DNA from: Candidatus Gottesmanbacteria bacterium RIFCSPHIGHO2_01_FULL_40_15
GTDB taxonomy: Bacteria > Patescibacteriota > Microgenomatia > 2-02-FULL-39-11
DNA length: 38,088 bases
Reading direction: 5' to 3'
NCBI GenBank assembly: GCA_001779115.1
Contig: MFJF01000018.1
Span: forward strand, 1-38,088
The position numbers and the translations under genes are program-made. Below are positions 1 through 9,778 of the stretch, piece after piece. Below the pieces are notes generated by a model. That model did not search any database. It saw nothing but the letters and a program-made list of their open reading frames with translations, and was not told the origin of the DNA. How positions within the stretch are numbered: position 1 is the stretch's first letter; each line of letters opens with the position of its first letter.

Positions 1-962
1 AAAAATTAAATTACCGAATAGGAGAGGAAGTAGCGACGAGAAAAGCATACGGCAATGCTTTGAAAAGATTGGGTAGGGATTATCCTGATCTGGTTTCACT
101 GGACGGAGATGTCAAAAATTCCACATACGCGGAGATTTTTAAAGAGGCTTTCCCCGGGCGCTTTTTTGAAATGTTTATTGCCGAACAGAACATGGTCGGG
201 GCGGGAGTCGGAATGGCCAGACTCGGATTTATTCCCTTTGTTTCATCTTTTGCCTGTTTTTTAACCCGAGGGTTTGACCAGATTAGGATGGCCGGGATCG
301 GGGGAGCAAACGTTAAATTCTGCGGATCCCATGCCGGAGTATCCATCGGGGAAGACGGACCGTCACAAATGGGACTGGAGGATTTATCAATGTTCAGGTC
401 TGTTTTCGGATCGACTGTTTTATATCCCTCGGATGCGGTTTCAACGGAGAGACTGGTTGAGCAAATGTTAAAAACAGCAGGAATCTGTTATATCAGGACA
501 GCAAGACCGGCAACTAAAGTTATCTACGGCAATGATGAGAAATTTCCGGTCGGAGGAAGCAAAATTCATAAGGTCAAATCTCAAATGTCAAATGTTAAAT
601 CTAAGGTGATTATTGCGGCGGCAGGGATTACTTTTCTTGAGGCTATGAAGGCACAGGAGGAATTAATTAAAGAAGGAATTGAGGCGATTGTTGTTGATTG
701 CTATTCGATCAAGCCGATAGACGGAGAGACTTTAAGAAAATTAGCCGAAGAAGCAAATTATTTTATAACTGTTGAAGACCATTATGAAGCGGGAGGATTG
801 GGGGAGACGGTTCTTAATGTTTTCGCTTCCGATCCGGTTGTTAAGGTTCATTGCATGGCTGTTTCCAAGTTGCCAAGAAGCGGAAAACCGGCAGAACTAA
901 TGAATTTTGAGGAGATTGATGCTGCCTCGATAGTAAAAAAAGCCCGCAGCATATTACATTAA
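1..962 (+). CDS. tkt: Transketolase, C-terminal part (gene enters from left edge)
   Basis: Transfers two-carbon ketol units between sugar phosphates in the non-oxidative pentose phosphate pathway, using thiamine diphosphate; cytoplasmic. The visible part holds the pyrimidine-binding domain (ATRKAYGNAL, then SLDGDVKNS, MFIAEQNMVGAG) and the C-terminal domain (VEDHYEAGGLGE). The TTG at 60 in the ORF track is not a credible start: the frame is open to base 3 and the residues before it (GEEVATRKAYGNALKRLG) are conserved transketolase sequence, so the 5' half lies outside the window. An unusual KSQMSNVKSK stretch at the domain boundary is encoded by a heptanucleotide tandem repeat. A transaldolase lies 4 kb downstream. 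Function is confident; whether the full gene is single-chain or split cannot be seen. Confidence 0.9.
   Translation, partial: KLNYRIGEEVATRKAYGNALKRLGRDYPDLVSLDGDVKNSTYAEIFKEAFPGRFFEMFIAEQNMVGAGVGMARLGFIPFVSSFACFLTRGFDQIRMAGIGGANVKFCGSHAGVSIGEDGPSQMGLEDLSMFRSVFGSTVLYPSDAVSTERLVEQMLKTAGICYIRTARPATKVIYGNDEKFPVGGSKIHKVKSQMSNVKSKVIIAAAGITFLEAMKAQEELIKEGIEAIVVDCYSIKPIDGETLRKLAEEANYFITVEDHYEAGGLGETVLNVFASDPVVKVHCMAVSKLPRSGKPAELMNFEEIDAASIVKKARSILH
574..601 (+). repeat. Heptanucleotide tandem repeat inside transketolase
   Basis: Four consecutive 7-mers: TCAAATC, TCAAATG, TCAAATG, TTAAATC. They encode a polar stretch between the pyrimidine and C-terminal domains, where an insertion would be tolerated. 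The same period and a similar unit recur at 5284-5318 and in the rplK leader. Confidence 0.75.
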
Positions 963-988: not shown

Positions 989-996
989 TCAGTTTG

Positions 997-1899
997 ATGA
1001 GCTTTCGGAATGCAGGAGAATATTTTGAAATTTCAATTACCCGCAAAAACAGCTGGATTTTAGCAAGCTCCGTTACTTTCATAATAATGTCTCTTTTTTC
1101 CCTGATTGAAAACTCTTTTTTCCGTGTTGAAGATTATTTTGTACCCCGGTCGATGATAACCATTGCCAAAAAAGCCGTAGCATGCGGCAATGGTAATCAG
1201 CCGGAGGAGCCAATGCCAACTTTAAAACTTATTGCGCAAAATAAAACCGATACCTGCAAACTTTTTATGGACGGGAGTGATTTGAAACAAATTTATGCTG
1301 AGATAAAGGAATTTAACAAGCTTGAGGAACTGCATCTGGCGTCAAACAGGTTAAAAACCCTTCCCAAGGAAATCGGTGATCTTCCCATAAAATATATTGA
1401 TTTGGGAAAAAACCAATTAGTGACAGTTCCCAAAGCGGTTCTGGAACTTGAGAAACTGCAGAAACTGGAAATCGGATTTAACCAGATCAGAACAATACCC
1501 GGAAACGTAAATAAGCTGACGGAATTAAGATTTGCCAGTTTTAACAAAAATTTAATTATCAAATTACCAAGAGCAATTGGGGAGCTTAAAAAACTTGAAT
1601 TTCTGGAACTCGGGGATAACAGAATTGTAATATTACCAAAAGAAATAGGCGGGCTTTCCAATCTTAAAGAATTGTATTTATACAATAACAGCCTGCATAA
1701 AATTCCGGTTGAAATCGGACTTTTGGAAAAATTGGAAATACTTGATTTAAGGAATAATCGGCTAAAAGATATACCCGAAGAAACAGGAAATCTGAAAAAT
1801 CTGAAACGTATTGAGCTGTCAGGGAATAATATTAATAATGAAGTAATAGAAATGTTGAAAAAAAGGCTACCCGATACAAAAATTGTCAACATAAAATGA
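997..1899 (+). CDS. Leucine-rich repeat protein with N-terminal membrane anchor
   Basis: About 300 aa. A hydrophobic segment near residues 20-40 (ILASSVTFIIMSLF) suggests a signal anchor. From roughly residue 100 to the end there are about eight tandem LRRs of ~23 residues with the pattern LxxLxLxxNxLxxLPxxIGxL, the bacterial form also common in Leptospira. LRR arrays form curved solenoids that bind proteins or glycans; the ligand is unknown. The track starts at TTG 994, directly before ATG 997; I prefer the ATG. The gene overlaps the following glycosyltransferase by four bases (ATGA), so the two are probably translationally coupled and functionally linked at the envelope. Confidence 0.85.
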   Translation: MSFRNAGEYFEISITRKNSWILASSVTFIIMSLFSLIENSFFRVEDYFVPRSMITIAKKAVACGNGNQPEEPMPTLKLIAQNKTDTCKLFMDGSDLKQIYAEIKEFNKLEELHLASNRLKTLPKEIGDLPIKYIDLGKNQLVTVPKAVLELEKLQKLEIGFNQIRTIPGNVNKLTELRFASFNKNLIIKLPRAIGELKKLEFLELGDNRIVILPKEIGGLSNLKELYLYNNSLHKIPVEIGLLEKLEILDLRNNRLKDIPEETGNLKNLKRIELSGNNINNEVIEMLKKRLPDTKIVNIK

Positions 1900-3101
1900 A
1901 AAGGAGAAGAATAATATTACTTTTACCGGTAGTTCTTTTAGTTGTTTTAACAGGCTGTTTTTTGTTGATCAGGAATAAAAAACTTTATGATGACGAATAT
2001 CCCCATTATCAGCAGATTGAGGTATTTCTGAAAAGGGATTTAAGGATTGTTAAGGGTTTATCAAAACTGCCGGGCTATCCTTTGGCTGTTGCAGCATTGG
2101 GGGGACTTTTTAATTTGGAAAAATTACCAAACCTGCGGGCAGTTTCATCCGGATTATCTCTTTTGTCAATCGCGGTCTTTTTCATACTGGTGAATTTCAT
2201 AGACAGACAGGCAGGTATTATTAAAACACTGCAATATATCCTTCTTCCCATCCAGTTTCCTTTTTTATTTCTTTTGTACAGCGAGGGGTTTTCCAACCTG
2301 GCAGTATTTCTGATGATTTATTTTGTTTTGAAGAAAAAGTATTTTCTTGGGGGGATTCTCAGTATTCTCGCTGTAATTATTAGGCAAACCAATATTATTT
2401 GGGCGGCAATGATGTTGATGATTGGTTATTTATTGGAATACGGTCCGGCAATTAACCGGGATTTCTTGAGAAAATATTTATCCAAGACATTTATTTTTGT
2501 TGCCGGTTTTTTACTTTTTATCCTGTTCGTTTATCTGAATAAGGGAGTAGCCGTCAGGGACCAGGCTGCCATGCCGACTTTCCAGGTTCACGCCGGAAGC
2601 GTCTATTGGACACTTTTTTTACTGTTTATTTTATTTTTACCCGTTCATTTAGCCGCCACAGGCAGGATTGCCCGCAGAATTGCCCGGAACCGGTTAATAC
2701 TTATTCCTCTGATTATTTTTGTTATTACCGGCGTTATTACTTTTAATAATCTTCATCCGATGAATACGAGCTGGGAGCATTTAAGAAACAGAATCCTTCT
2801 ATTATATTCTTCGGATTTATGGAAAAGAACAGCTTTTTTTATCTTCATTTCATATACCGTTTTATCATTAAGCACCATAAAATTAATAAAAAAAGAATAT
2901 TATCTTTTATATCCGTTTGCATTTTTATCAGTTTTCCCTTTTTGGCTGATTGAATCAAGATACAGCCTGACGGCAATTATTCTTTTTATGCTGTTTAGAA
3001 AAAGCGGGAACAGGAAATTGGAATATCTTATCCTGGCAATTTTTGCCGTGTTCAGCCTTATATTTTTTAAGGGGTACCTGAACCGCGATTTTTATTTGTG
3101 A
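1896..3101 (+). CDS. Multi-pass glycosyltransferase, DIE2/ALG10 family-like
   Basis: 401 aa with about ten membrane segments. Several features match the eukaryotic ALG10 alpha-1,2-glucosyltransferase family (last glucose added to the N-glycan lipid precursor): an acidic motif in the first luminal loop (DDEYPHYQQ, near residue 32), a KLPGYPLAVA stretch like the TxPGLY region, FLFLLYSEGFSNL like the YYTDxxS region, and RQTNIIW near residue 163, a hallmark of ALG10. In a bacterium it would use a polyprenyl-phosphate sugar donor to glycosylate a lipid-linked or protein acceptor outside the membrane; the substrate is unknown. It is coupled to the preceding LRR gene. An ordinary GT-C mannosyltransferase is the alternative, but the RQTNIIW match favours ALG10. 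Confidence 0.7.
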   Translation: MKRRRIILLLPVVLLVVLTGCFLLIRNKKLYDDEYPHYQQIEVFLKRDLRIVKGLSKLPGYPLAVAALGGLFNLEKLPNLRAVSSGLSLLSIAVFFILVNFIDRQAGIIKTLQYILLPIQFPFLFLLYSEGFSNLAVFLMIYFVLKKKYFLGGILSILAVIIRQTNIIWAAMMLMIGYLLEYGPAINRDFLRKYLSKTFIFVAGFLLFILFVYLNKGVAVRDQAAMPTFQVHAGSVYWTLFLLFILFLPVHLAATGRIARRIARNRLILIPLIIFVITGVITFNNLHPMNTSWEHLRNRILLLYSSDLWKRTAFFIFISYTVLSLSTIKLIKKEYYLLYPFAFLSVFPFWLIESRYSLTAIILFMLFRKSGNRKLEYLILAIFAVFSLIFFKGYLNRDFYL

Positions 3102-3130
3102 AAAGAGGAAACGGTTCGTTTTAAAAAAAT

Positions 3131-3143
3131 GCCGCACAGAGAA
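3131..3143 (+). repeat. Left inverted repeat of the 3.1-4.3 kb unit
   Basis: GCCGCACAGAGAA matches the reverse complement of 4291-4303 exactly. The flanking bases are also partly alike (TTTAA.AA before the core on both sides). Confidence 0.5.
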
Positions 3144-3168
3144 AACTGAAAAATAATAAAAGGTTCGC

Positions 3169-3196
3169 TCCTTAAACCCGCTTTTTGGGCTAAGGA
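3169..3196 (+). terminator. Hairpin downstream of the ALG10-like gene
   Basis: TCCTTA...TAAGGA with inner CCC...GGG forms a hairpin ~70 bases past the stop codon. There is no strong T-run, so termination is uncertain; it may belong to the adjoining structured unit. Confidence 0.3.
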
Positions 3197-3238
3197 ACGT
3201 AAATTAGTTAAAATTATTTCAGTTTTTGGCTTAAGACT

Positions 3239-3349
3239 TTTGGAGCGGGGGTATGTTTTTGCGCGTTACCGGGAAGTCATCCGGGTAAACCTGCATCCGG
3301 CAGGCTTTATGACTTCATCCCGATCTATCGGGACGCATATCCGTTTAAG
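3239..3349 (-). repeat. Structured ~110-bp direct repeat, copy 1
   Basis: Nearly identical to 3692-3801. Read on the minus strand it holds a TCCCGAT/ATCGGGA hairpin, an AAGTCAT/ATGACTT stem enclosing CCTGC/GCAGG, and an outer GCGT/ACGC closing pair. The few differences between copies fall in loops or unpaired linkers. It lies downstream of the small membrane protein gene at 3420-3665. This accounts for most of the 318 gene-free bases after the ALG10-like gene. Confidence 0.7.
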
Positions 3350-3419
3350 CATTTTCCTTCTTTACTCCTCTTAGGAAGGTGATATTGAGTTTTGACGGAC
3401 CCCCATGTGAAATTAAATA

Positions 3420-3665
3420 TTAAAGAAGAAACGGTAGTGACCAAAACGGTACCATAGATCCTAGTAAGGAACCAAGGAAAACACCGAAAGTCACAAGTGA
3501 AATACAAAAAATAACTTCACCGTTACTTCTGGCAAAGGCAAGCGCAGTTAATAGTGCAAGAATTACTAATCCGATAATGGCAAGGATTGGTTTTCCTACA
3601 ATAAAACCTATTAGAAAGCCTACGCTGAAGGCAAGAATATAATTTTGGAACTGGTGCATGTTCAT
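3420..3665 (-). CDS. Small Gly-rich membrane protein (paralog of 3832-4071)
   Basis: About 81 aa, with two or three hydrophobic helices rich in Gly (VGFLIGFIVGKPILAIIG, FGVFLGSLLGS). It aligns along its length with the next gene (shared IGF..G, LA..G..IL, GV..GSL.GS..PF), so the two arose by tandem duplication. The track's 135-aa version runs upstream through the structured repeat; ATG at 3665 is the sensible start, preceded by a purine-rich AAGAAG tract. Function unknown. Holin-like, small stress-membrane or toxin-like roles are all possible; nothing decides between them. Confidence 0.6.
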   Translation of the reverse strand: MNMHQFQNYILAFSVGFLIGFIVGKPILAIIGLVILALLTALAFARSNGEVIFCISLVTFGVFLGSLLGSMVPFWSLPFLL

Positions 3666-3691
3666 TTTTTTCTTCTTTTTTTCCAAATATC

Positions 3692-3801
3692 TTTGGAGCG
3701 GGGGCATGTTTTTGCGCGTTACCGGGAAGTCATCCGGGGAAACCTGCATCCGGCAGGCAAATGACTTCATCCCGAACCATCGGGACGCATATCCGTATAA
3801 G
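3692..3801 (-). repeat. Structured ~110-bp direct repeat, copy 2
   Basis: Sits between the two paralogous membrane protein genes. It has the same stems as copy 1 with changed loop bases (for example TGGT in place of TAGA between TCCCGA and TCGGGA). The block CGGACCCCCA follows each copy (3396-3405, 3811-3820), directly after copy 2 and ~45 bases after copy 1. Confidence 0.7.
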
Positions 3802-3831
3802 TTTCCAGAGCGGACCCCCAAATACACTGCT

Positions 3832-4071
3832 TCAAAAGATTAACTGAAGCAGTGCCGAAAACGGCAACCGTGAACCGGAAAGGCTACCAAAAAGAACACC
3901 CAGGCCAAATCCGGCGACAAAACCGGTTTTGGTTCCGGCTTTGCTAATTAACGCTAGGACTACTGTAATAAGCAGGATAATAAAACCAAGCCAAGCTAAA
4001 ACAGCCTGACCTAAAGCAAATCCGATTATCATCCCGCTTACAAATCCCCAAAATTCGGGGTTTTTTTTCAT
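3832..4071 (-). CDS. Small Gly-rich membrane protein
   Basis: 79 aa with two long hydrophobic segments (FVSGMIIGFALGQAVLAWLG; TGFVAGFGLGVLFGSLSG) separated by a basic loop (SKAGTKTG). It is paralogous to the gene just downstream. Start ATG at 4071 follows an AAAGGA purine tract. A ~190-base hairpin-rich region precedes it and probably forms its leader. Both genes run on the minus strand inside the inverted-repeat unit. I do not recognise the family; the tandem copies, each followed by the structured repeat, suggest the gene and repeat were duplicated as one module. Confidence 0.65.
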   Translation of the reverse strand: MKKNPEFWGFVSGMIIGFALGQAVLAWLGFIILLITVVLALISKAGTKTGFVAGFGLGVLFGSLSGSRLPFSALLQLIF

Positions 4072-4094
4072 TTTTTATTTTTTCCTTTCTGAAG

Positions 4095-4285
4095 TGTCAC
4101 CCCGGCACCCGGATTCTCTACCGGAAATTATTTTCCGAATAGAGTTTTTTCAGACAGAGGCTTCCCTGTTCACAAATTGTCCCCGACAATTTAAGGGGAT
4201 AGTTAGTCTGGCTGATGGGGAGAAAGCCGGCCGGAAATTTCCCTATTTTTAAGACCGATTATCTCCCCAACAGCTTATTTAGGAT
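4095..4285 (-). ncRNA. Hairpin-rich leader or structured RNA of unknown family
   Basis: Read on the minus strand this gene-free stretch folds into several stable hairpins: GGGGAGA/TCTCCCC closed by CTG/CAG, AAATTGTC-GGG-GACAATTT (perfect 8-bp stem) inside a CAGAC/GTCTG stem, CTCTA..CGGAAA/TTTCCG..TAGAG, and the palindrome GGAAATTTCC. It lies directly upstream of the membrane protein gene at 3832-4071. It is not tmRNA, SRP, RNase P or a tRNA by the conserved motifs I looked for. A regulatory leader is the simplest reading. Confidence 0.4.
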
Positions 4286-4290
4286 ATATT

Positions 4291-4303
4291 CTCTGTGCGG
4301 CTT
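4291..4303 (-). repeat. Right inverted repeat of the 3.1-4.3 kb unit
   Basis: TTCTCTGTGCGGC is the exact reverse complement of 3131-3143. Confidence 0.5.
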
Positions 4304-4323
4304 GTTAAAGAGCTACCGTTTTA

Positions 4324-4845
4324 ATGAATAACACAGTAATAAAAGATGAATGTAAGAAAGAGAGTCTTACCCAATTCTTATGTAAACTTCAATATCCTTT
4401 TATGCGGTTACCTGATGATTACTCAAATCCATTTTATAAAAATTTATCAGGGAGACAGATAATGATCAGAGGCATAGATTCAGTTCTATTATTCAGCAAA
4501 GATCCGAAAAATTTGGCTGATTTTTACAAACAAAAAGTCGGACTTGAAGTGGAGCTGGTGGGGGAATACGGAAATAATTTTGAAGAGAAGATATTCGGGG
4601 TGAAGGCCGGAGATTCAAATCTCCTGTCAATTCTTCACCATTCGAAACTTAAAGGACCGAATAAGGAACCGGAGCGGTTTATGATTAATTTTGAGGTTGA
4701 CAATATTGAGGAAACGGTTTCTAAACTGGAGAAAAACGGGGTTAAAAAAATACAGGAGATTTACCATGTGGAAGATTACGGAAAAATTGCCACGTTTGAA
4801 GATCCCGACAAAAACTACTTCCAGATGGTGCAGGTAAGGTCATAA
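4324..4845 (+). CDS. VOC (glyoxalase/bleomycin-resistance) superfamily protein
   Basis: From residue ~47 the protein is a single VOC module of ~127 aa: MIRGIDSVLLFSKD, LADFYKQKVGLEVE, a central FEVDNIEETVSKLEKNG and the closing FEDPDKNYFQMVQ. VOC proteins are metal-dependent isomerases, dioxygenases or drug-binding proteins; a single module works as a dimer. The substrate cannot be told. The 46 residues before it have no VOC match. ATG 4462 has a GGGAGA Shine-Dalgarno sequence at good spacing and may be the true start; ATG 4324 overlaps the edge of the upstream inverted-repeat unit. Both are possible. Confidence 0.75.
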   Translation: MNNTVIKDECKKESLTQFLCKLQYPFMRLPDDYSNPFYKNLSGRQIMIRGIDSVLLFSKDPKNLADFYKQKVGLEVELVGEYGNNFEEKIFGVKAGDSNLLSILHHSKLKGPNKEPERFMINFEVDNIEETVSKLEKNGVKKIQEIYHVEDYGKIATFEDPDKNYFQMVQVRS

Positions 4846-4854
4846 AGATACGGA

Positions 4855-4883
4855 TTGACATAACAGGATAAATCTGATAAAAG
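4855..4883 (+). promoter_or_regulatory. Promoter TTGACA-17-TAAAAG
   Basis: TTGACA at 4855-4860, a 17-base spacer and TAAAAG at 4878-4883 with TG one base before it. The start codon at 4895 is 12 bases past the -10, so the leader would be about 5 bases. It supports the small gene that follows. Confidence 0.65.
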
Positions 4884-4894
4884 TCAGGTTTAAT

Positions 4895-5092
4895 ATGGCA
4901 ATTTCCGAAATGGATTTTTCACCTCCCGAACAAATTCCCAAAGAGGAACTTGAAACTTTGGGACTGGCCGAAGAAATCGGTCCCGGAGACGGGATGAAGC
5001 ATGAACCCGACGACAGAGAACCCCGATATTGTGATAAAGAAGACCATATGGCAAGAAGTGATGCCGCAAAAAATGGTCTTTCAAGACCTTAA
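4895..5092 (+). CDS. Small acidic hypothetical protein
   Basis: 65 aa, acidic and Pro-rich (MDFSPPEQIPKEELETLG; EDHMARSDAAKNGLSRP), without membrane segments. No family recognised. A near-consensus promoter ends 11 bases before its ATG, which argues it is expressed. The last codons form a short GGTCT/AGACC hairpin (5075-5088) that may act as a weak terminator before the transaldolase gene. The opposite-strand ORF at 4890-5084 is a shadow. Confidence 0.55.
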   Translation: MAISEMDFSPPEQIPKEELETLGLAEEIGPGDGMKHEPDDREPRYCDKEDHMARSDAAKNGLSRP

Positions 5093-5124
5093 TACTTATT
5101 CTTTTATATATGAAACTATTAATT

Positions 5125-5130
5125 TATAAT
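5125..5130 (+). promoter_or_regulatory. -10 box for transaldolase
   Basis: A perfect TATAAT ends 7 bases before the ATG at 5138, so transcription should start at the ATG itself. No Shine-Dalgarno sequence and no clear -35. Confidence 0.5.
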
Positions 5131-5137
5131 AATATGC

Positions 5138-6019
5138 ATGAGAGAATTTTCTTCAAAGATCTTCATAGACGGAGGAGAACCGGAAGAAACAAAACTAGCT
5201 TCGGAAATTCTTCTTAAACAGACCGGCCGGCCTCTTGACGGACAAACGACCAACCCCACATTGATCGCAAAGAAACTTCGCGATCAAAACTCAAAATTCA
5301 AAACTCAAAACTCAAAACTAACAGAAGAAATGGCTTTGAGTGAATACAAGCGAATTGTCCAAGAAATGAGCAAAATAATACCAAAAGGTTCGATATCAAT
5401 TCAGGTTTTTGCCGATAAATATACTTCTTTCGAGGAGATGCTTGATCAGGCCAGGGACAGAGCCGGTTGGATTAAAAACGCCTCAATTAAGTTTCCCTGT
5501 ACACAGGAGGGATTAAAAGCGGCTGGCACTGCCTGTATGGAAATGCCAATTAATATAACTCTGGTTTTTTCCCAAAACCAGGCGGCGGCAGTTTATGCAG
5601 CCACTAAAAATAATAAATATCCTATATTTATTTCTCCATTCGTAGGAAGACTGGATGATAAGGGAGAAAACGGGATGGATGTTGTTAAAAATATCATCAG
5701 GATGTATAAAAACGGAGACGGTCATGTGGAAGTTCTTACCGCTTCAATTCGCAATATTGAGCATATTCTGTATGCAATACAACTCAAATCAGACATAATG
5801 ACTATTCCTTATAAGGTTTTCAGACTATGGGCCGATAATAAATTTGGAGCACCTGACAGTAATTATGTTTATAAACCTGATAATCTTAAGGAAATTCCAT
5901 ACCGTGATAATATTGAATTGGGAAAAGACTTTAGAGAATACGATTTAAGCCATCCATTGACCGATGCGGGAATTGAGAGATTCTATTCCGACTGGACGGG
6001 TATGTTTGAACAGATTTGA
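5138..6019 (+). CDS. tal: Transaldolase
   Basis: Moves a dihydroxyacetone unit between sugar phosphates in the non-oxidative pentose phosphate pathway, partnering the transketolase at the left edge. Family signatures are FIDGGEPEETKLA and GQTTNPTLIAKKL at the N-terminus, and IKFPCTQEGLKA around residue 118, where Lys is the expected Schiff-base residue. Further matches are NITLVFSQNQA, FISPFVGRLDD and VLTASIRN. At 293 aa it is within the range of the family. Residues ~49-61 (DQNSKFKTQNSKL) are an insertion encoded by five perfect TCAAAAN heptamers. The gene appears leaderless. Confidence 0.9.
   Translation: MREFSSKIFIDGGEPEETKLASEILLKQTGRPLDGQTTNPTLIAKKLRDQNSKFKTQNSKLTEEMALSEYKRIVQEMSKIIPKGSISIQVFADKYTSFEEMLDQARDRAGWIKNASIKFPCTQEGLKAAGTACMEMPINITLVFSQNQAAAVYAATKNNKYPIFISPFVGRLDDKGENGMDVVKNIIRMYKNGDGHVEVLTASIRNIEHILYAIQLKSDIMTIPYKVFRLWADNKFGAPDSNYVYKPDNLKEIPYRDNIELGKDFREYDLSHPLTDAGIERFYSDWTGMFEQI
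5284..5318 (+). repeat. Heptanucleotide tandem repeat inside transaldolase
   Basis: Five uninterrupted 7-mers: TCAAAAC, TCAAAAT, TCAAAAC, TCAAAAC, TCAAAAC. They encode a polar QNSKFKTQNSK stretch in the N-terminal part of the enzyme. The period is 7, so the reading phase shifts at each unit, yet no stop appears. Confidence 0.85.
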
Positions 6020-9226: not shown

Positions 9227-9778
9227 ATGAAAAAAATTCTGTTAACCCTTGTTATTGCAGCCGGATTGCTGTTTGGTACAATCGCCGGAGCAAAAGGCAG
9301 TGAAAAGTTAAATTTCCGGCAACTTTTGTTGTGGCACAGCCGGCCAAATACAGTGAAAATTCCGGATATTGATGTTGAAGCTAAAGTGGAATGGGTAGGA
9401 GAGGATAACCAGGGGAATATGGACATACCCAAGGACACTGATAATGCAGCCTGGTATGAAAAGGGATACTATCCCGGAGAGAAGGGCAGTATGGTAATAG
9501 CCGGTCATAAAGATTCCAAAACCGGTCCGGCCATTTTTTATAATCTGGATAAACTTTCATTCGGGGATGCGATCACAGTTTCGGATATGAAGGGGAAAAT
9601 TTACCGTTACATTGTTTTTGATAAAAAGCTTTATGAAGAGGATATGTTTCCGGTCAAAGAAATATTCGGAAAAACTGATTTTAGCATACTTAATTTAATA
9701 ACCTGTAAAGGAACTTTTAACAGAAGTGACGAGAGTTATTCCCACCGATTGGTTGTTTCGGCAAAGTTGGTAGAATAA
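9227..9778 (+). CDS. Sortase (class E/F-like transpeptidase)
   Basis: 183 aa. A membrane anchor or signal segment at residues 3-20 precedes a sortase domain with all three active-site residues: His94 in VIAGHKD, Cys160 in NLITCKG and Arg174 in YSHRLVV. Other family features are FYNLDKLSFGDAITV and the N-terminal KIPDIDVEAKVEW. Sortases cleave a sorting signal and join the protein to a cell-surface amine. The compact size and GHxD..TG..IF..L motif resemble the class E/F group. The gene just upstream ends in APNTG and is a candidate partner. TATATA sits a few bases before the ATG, so it may also have its own promoter. Confidence 0.85.
   Translation: MKKILLTLVIAAGLLFGTIAGAKGSEKLNFRQLLLWHSRPNTVKIPDIDVEAKVEWVGEDNQGNMDIPKDTDNAAWYEKGYYPGEKGSMVIAGHKDSKTGPAIFYNLDKLSFGDAITVSDMKGKIYRYIVFDKKLYEEDMFPVKEIFGKTDFSILNLITCKGTFNRSDESYSHRLVVSAKLVE

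Follow-up and report, generated by a model that had tools for sequence, protein, structure and literature searches.

The window, by which we mean the whole stretch of DNA analysed (38,088 nucleotides), is contig 18, from base 1, of a Candidatus Gottesmanbacteria genome of 1.33 Mb in 32 contigs (G000). Close to its start, a gene for an LRR protein and a gene for a putative ALG10-type transferase lie together among pentose-phosphate and housekeeping genes. The features of this locus are as follows.

3-962, plus strand: C-terminal half of transketolase, flanking gene (Pfam match and synteny).
994-1899, plus strand: LRR protein of 300-301 amino acids (LRR_8, 82.7 bits), overlapping the start codon of the ALG10-type gene (ATGA, 1896-1899).
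1896-3101, plus strand: membrane protein of 401 amino acids assigned to the DIE2/ALG10 family (PF04922), by profile match and predicted GT-C fold.
1992-1997, plus strand: Asp33-Glu34 in the first loop, an acidic pair of the catalytic GT-C type, invariant in 19 of 19 relatives.
2382-2402, plus strand: RQTNIIW motif, residues 163-169, with Gln164 invariant in 19 of 19.
2754-2789, plus strand: HPMNTSWEHLRN loop, residues 287-298, consensus HPxNQ...FLRN, with Asn290 and Asn298 invariant.
2946-2963, plus strand: LIESRY motif, residues 351-356, with Arg355 and Tyr356 invariant, as is the preceding Trp350.
4324-4845, plus strand: glyoxalase-family protein, the next conserved gene past the LRR-ALG10 pair (Pfam match and synteny).
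5138-6019, plus strand: transaldolase, flanking gene, whose synteny with transketolase is kept in four relatives (G041, G072, G023 and G082).

The LRR gene is listed from a TTG at 994, although an ATG at 997 is an equally good start, and its product has a single N-terminal hydrophobic segment (residues 19-37 of the 300-residue form), with the LRR part predicted to be outside. Just downstream of the ALG10-type gene is a repeat of about 115-125 bases, present in two copies (3223-3349 and 3676-3801) that are some 453 bases apart and 89-93% alike, and not found elsewhere in the genome. Between the ALG10-type and glyoxalase genes there are also two minus-strand open reading frames, 3420-3665 (81 amino acids) and 3838-4071 (78 amino acids), which encode small, strongly hydrophobic and similar-looking proteins. 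Further along the window, a sortase-family gene (9227-9778; PF04203, 86.8 bits) suggests covalent anchoring or processing of surface proteins.

The first-pass annotation had read the gene at 1896-3101 as an ALG10/DIE2-type transferase from three short strings, all of which were located in the translation (DDEYPHYQQ at residues 32-40, YSEGFSN at 128-134 and RQTNIIW at 163-169), and the HMM comparison that it proposed bears out the assignment. In an hmmscan against all Pfam, the window protein matched PF04922 (DIE2_ALG10) at 62.1 bits (E 7.6e-17), compared with a curated whole-protein cut-off of 27 bits, the match comprising two stretches in the N- and C-terminal halves of the profile. As a yardstick for this score, the ALG10 of a red alga matched an older version of the model with an E-value of 1.3e-15 (PMC3958852). 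In the same scan of all Pfam no model for PMT, PMT_2, GT22, ALG6_ALG8, STT3 or PIG-V appeared at E < 1, a level that was otherwise reached only by two unrelated families below their thresholds; a better match to PMT, GT39 or GT83, which the first-pass annotation had named as grounds for dropping its reading, was looked for and none was found under E = 1. No NCBIfam model matches the window protein, and a sequence search of the solved structures in our PDB copy gave no match. Together with a first-loop Asp-Glu pair that is invariant across the alignment, these comparisons strongly support placing the window protein in the ALG10/DIE2 family (GT59, PF04922). Eukaryotic contamination was ruled out as a source of the gene, as the flanking genes are bacterial, the contig carries a bacterial L10 leader, and homologues are found on bacterial contigs, one of them a 13.8-Mb contig from an isolate.

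Conservation was assessed in a family alignment of 19 bacterial sequences, in which the motifs take the forms YTD or YxE, RQxNI, HPxNQ...FLRN and LIExRY. Human ALG10 presumably has strings similar to these bacterial motifs, in the same order. Several GT-C enzymes require an acidic motif located after TM1 in their first loop (PMC6801728), and Asp33-Glu34 occupies this position in the window protein. The protein begins with MKRRR, is predicted to have about 11-13 membrane helices and has no soluble domain, in likeness to ALG10, for which a published topology model gives 13 TMD (PMC6801728). By the positive-inside rule, the MKRRR sequence would place the N-terminus inside, and the first loop with Asp33 and Glu34 should face outside.

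An AlphaFold2 model of the window protein built from a 12-sequence alignment had a pLDDT of 90.7 and a pTM of 0.91. The leading folds in a Foldseek search of the PDB with this model were ALG12, ALG3, AglB, STT3 and ArnT, with probabilities of 0.97-1.00, TM-scores of 0.33-0.45, 10-15% identity and a best E-value of 0.017. All E-values were therefore above 0.001, and the fold call rests on the probabilities and the consistency of the match list. On this footing the model is reasonably taken to have a GT-C fold, and the search does not discriminate between GT-C families; the PDB copy searched yielded no solved structure of ALG10. In BFVD, a Nitrosopumilus spindle-shaped virus protein (A0A514K2W1) had a weak GT-C-like likeness (E 6.7e-4, probability 1.00, TM 0.50). 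No relative of the window protein was found among the viral contigs searched.

The genome carries a second full-length ALG10-family copy on contig 14 (C14), which scores 69.1 bits against PF04922 (stretches 5-163 and 203-390) and aligns without gaps to the window protein over 372 residues at 40% identity. A weak match of the C14 copy to NCBIfam NF046093 (21.5 bits, where 150 is the cut-off) was disregarded. Eight relatives score 51-134 bits against PF04922, the highest being a Peribacteria protein (G454) that matches 386 of the 391 profile positions (5-390) in a single stretch at 134 bits. One relative (L034) also has a sub-threshold match to PMT_2, whose score of 22.8 bits is lower than the 71.4 bits that it reaches against PF04922. 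For neither the window protein nor these relatives did a rival family pass its threshold. The bacterial relatives are highly divergent, with 25-38% identity to the window protein. The family-profile search delimits them well, giving more than 230 bits to every member and at most 45 to the GT-C group that comes next.

Among bacteria the family is rare and patchy. Of 15 genomes sampled from the window's family, seven have full-length copies (G000 and G168, with two each, and G041, G072, G082, G119 and G158), and these seven with G014 and G242 make up the nine genomes above the PF04922 cut-off in a class sample of 280. A sample of 380 genomes from the phylum contained, beyond the window's genome, only the Peribacteria homologue. 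Outside the phylum, the cut-off was exceeded in a MAG without a phylum name (L071), a deltaproteobacterial MAG (L074), Archangium lansinium (L075; an isolate genome, on a 13.8-Mb contig), an Acidobacteria MAG (L076), a Gemmatimonadetes MAG (L079) and the genome of L078. This last (G633; L078 and L081) has two PF04922 genes and is a MAG titled Bordetella parapertussis, a label that is doubtful. The ALG10-type proteins of the Gemmatimonadetes MAG are longer (574 amino acids at L085 889-2613; 563 at L079 1629-3320), with the extra residues, about 200, being N-terminal. Sampling of 247 genomes from the phylum of the Acidobacteria MAG recovered the seed genome only, and 146 genomes from the phylum of Archangium gave the seed genome and one frame barely over the cut-off that is an outsider by the family profile. 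Such a distribution suggests horizontal transfer or repeated loss. In a tree of the bacterial sequences, the window copy, C14 and the G041 and G072 proteins group together at 100/99, with the window copy falling outside the other three; the deep branches are mostly weak, and as such we claim no direction of transfer.

The first-pass annotation had further proposed that the transferase is coupled to the LRR protein and perhaps glycosylates it. The ATGA overlap was located as described, four bases from the ATG at 1896 to the end of the LRR reading frame at 1899. However, of the 20 neighbouring plus-strand pairs listed for the window's first 21 kb, three overlap by four bases, and the overlap was rejected as stand-alone evidence of coupling. 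Coupling finds partial support in the neighbourhoods of close relatives. An LRR gene of the same type lies within about 10 kb of all four ALG10-type genes of the sub-clade (three genomes from two genera), at distances of 0 to about 8 kb. On contig 14 (L028) the LRR gene (2344-3240) is followed by a GT-C gene (3285-4802) and the ALG10-type gene (4780-5991), and G041 and G072 each have LRR genes in tandem at some 7-8 kb from their ALG10-type gene, separated from it by glycosyltransferase genes. By a rough estimate (20 kb in 1.3-1.7 Mb, with one to three LRR places), the chance of one such proximity is about 1-5%, and G041 and G072, being of the same genus, do not count as independent cases. At the window's locus itself, the order of the transketolase, glyoxalase and transaldolase genes is kept in G041 and G072 but no LRR-ALG10 pair intervenes, and in G023 and G082 transketolase adjoins transaldolase. 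With its site empty in these syntenic relatives, the pair has most simply been inserted as a unit.

In the other lineages inspected the association was not seen. LRR relatives are present in five of the 15 genomes of the window's family, G000 included, and G082, G119 and G158 have the transferase with no such LRR in that search; for other phyla, inspection of the lists of open reading frames around the homologues showed no LRR gene. The ALG10-type enzyme thus has no general need of a neighbouring LRR protein, and the part of the coupling claim that stands is a local, lineage-level association. Moreover, the upstream LRR protein, which groups with the membrane-anchored LRR proteins of G041, G072 and contigs 14 and 25 (C25) of G000, is closer to those of G041 and C25 than to that of C14. 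This disagrees with the ALG10 tree, and so the LRR-ALG10 pairs did not simply duplicate together. The LRR genes of G041, G072 and C25 differ in additionally adjoining an asparagine-synthase gene cluster. At these three loci (L136, L137 and L138, respectively) the neighbours of the LRR gene are an asparagine synthase, a fusion of S24 peptidase and nucleotidyltransferase, a P-loop protein and a PqqD-like gene (Pfam match in L138), which together recall a lasso-peptide-like RiPP cluster.

That the window protein is a protein glycosyltransferase acting on the LRR protein encoded just upstream would agree with the gene overlap, with the proximity in all four sub-clade members, with the outside-facing prediction for both proteins, and with the fact that at the transketolase locus the two genes are present or absent together. 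Even so we consider it unlikely. No such LRR protein accompanies the homologues of G082, G119 and G158, which represent related genera, or those of more distant lineages such as Peribacteria, Archangium and Acidobacteria; ALG10-type enzymes act on lipid-linked oligosaccharides; and the window protein lacks a soluble acceptor-binding domain, a feature by which PMT, STT3 and ArnT differ from the ALG enzymes. The LRR protein has two N-x-S/T strings, too few to mean much.

Membership in the ALG10 family, and the fact that prokaryotes do have STT3-type pathways, might instead suggest a role similar to N-glycosylation, in which the window protein would cap a lipid-linked oligosaccharide and an oligosaccharyltransferase would then move the glycan to proteins. 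A profile search of 16 genomes for STT3 (PF02516), in which four archaeal controls were all positive, gave no match in G000 or in 13 further family-bearing genomes. The exceptions were G168, where a single frame narrowly passed the cut-off over a stretch of 133 positions, and G632, with sub-threshold matches only. Since STT3 was not found in its genome, the window protein is unlikely to finish an N-glycan; an ALG10-like role in N-glycosylation is disfavoured by these profile results, and we hold this pathway to be highly improbable.

The window protein shares its fold with ALG12, ALG3, STT3/AglB, ArnT and Pmt1-Pmt2 (Foldseek probability mostly 0.97-1.00), in contrast to an identity of 10-15%, TM-scores of 0.33-0.45 and no sequence-family match. 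Other bacterial GT-C genes, which we take to be GPI18/PIG-V-like, form a weak group with faint profile similarity to the family, and are set apart by scores of at most 45 bits (members, above 230) and by a C-terminal end of FTRGHWV[SA]. A relation between ALG10 and Gpi18 has been suggested earlier (PMC4973528). That the window protein is a generic bacterial GT-C enzyme (ArnT-, PMT- or GPI18-like), with a likeness to ALG10 limited to short motifs, could draw on how numerous and divergent GT-C enzymes are, on the similar PDB fold matches to ALG12, ALG3, STT3 and ArnT and on the sub-threshold PF04922 matches of this weak group, but it is largely refuted by the profile scores of the window protein and its Peribacteria relative, the lack of any other GT-C model at E < 1 and the broad score gap, and seems scarcely credible.

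The window protein thus resembles the ALG10/DIE2 of the eukaryotic ER (dolichyl-phosphate-glucose alpha-1,2-glucosyltransferase, GT59) in its profile match over both halves, its first-loop acidic pair, its predicted helices without a soluble domain and its GT-C fold, and differs in being bacterial, in having a second copy in the same genome and in belonging to a genome where STT3 was not found. GT-C enzymes use polyprenyl-phosphate-linked sugars at the outer, or lumenal, side of the membrane (PMC6801728), and the neighbourhood of the Peribacteria homologue suggests how such a donor might be provided. A GT2 gene starts nine bases downstream of it, and among solved structures the GT2 product best matches dolichol monophosphate mannose synthase and next undecaprenyl-phosphate L-Ara4FN transferase, the class of enzymes that make polyprenyl-phosphate-sugar donors. 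Homologues of this GT2 were found in all ten genomes tested. G000 has 17, the nearest 37% identical and on contig 15; none adjoins the window's ALG10-type gene, and these GT2 proteins are candidate donor synthases. In related Gottesmanbacteria the surroundings of the ALG10-type gene resemble a surface-glycan locus and include GT-C and GT2 genes, a sugar epimerase/dehydratase and a DegT aminotransferase, whereas the window's own copy is surrounded by pentose-phosphate and housekeeping genes without a glycan cluster.

We therefore lean, with some confidence, towards a bacterial ALG10-family transferase that acts at the outer face with a polyprenyl-phosphate-hexose donor and a lipid-linked surface-glycan acceptor, by a route other than STT3. 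The window protein would be embedded in the cytoplasmic membrane so that Asp33-Glu34 in the first loop lies at the outer face; a GT2 synthase similar to DPMS or ALG5 would make the polyprenyl-phosphate-hexose at the inner face; the window protein would move the hexose onto a lipid-linked surface glycan, probably as the terminal residue; and the completed glycan would reach the cell envelope independently of STT3. A lipid-linked acceptor is suggested because the protein, like the ALG enzymes, has no soluble domain for binding an acceptor, and a surface glycan is the best guess given that STT3 is missing from nearly all family-bearing genomes. Sugar and acceptor switch within GT-C families, and the substrate is not readable from sequence. 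Our computations directly support the family membership, the invariant loop residues, the GT-C fold, the second copy, the lack of an STT3 match in the genome and the presence there of GT2 candidates for making the donor; we infer the outward topology, donor class, acceptor, identity of the sugar and any functional link to the LRR protein.

A survey of the N-glycosylation pathway in 2016 concluded that the glycosyltransferases of the ER lumen, including ALG10, appear unique to eukaryotes, with no prokaryotic homologues by BLASTp and profile searches leading mainly to PMT and DUF2029 proteins (PMC4973528). In the open-licence literature we found no description of bacterial PF04922 proteins, and Pfam may already list bacterial members. 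In light of that survey, a bacterial branch of ALG10 matters for the origin of the pathway. One tentative and rather doubtful scenario is that there is an old bacterial lineage of transferases capping lipid-linked glycans independently of oligosaccharyltransferase, from which eukaryotic ALG10 was recruited, and which in a lineage of Patescibacteria pairs with a surface LRR protein as a transferable two-gene unit. With full-length bacterial homologues that pass Pfam's cut-off, among them that of a myxobacterial isolate, a tree could be used to test where ALG10 came from, and the bacterial proteins would be candidates for solving a structure of the ALG10 family.
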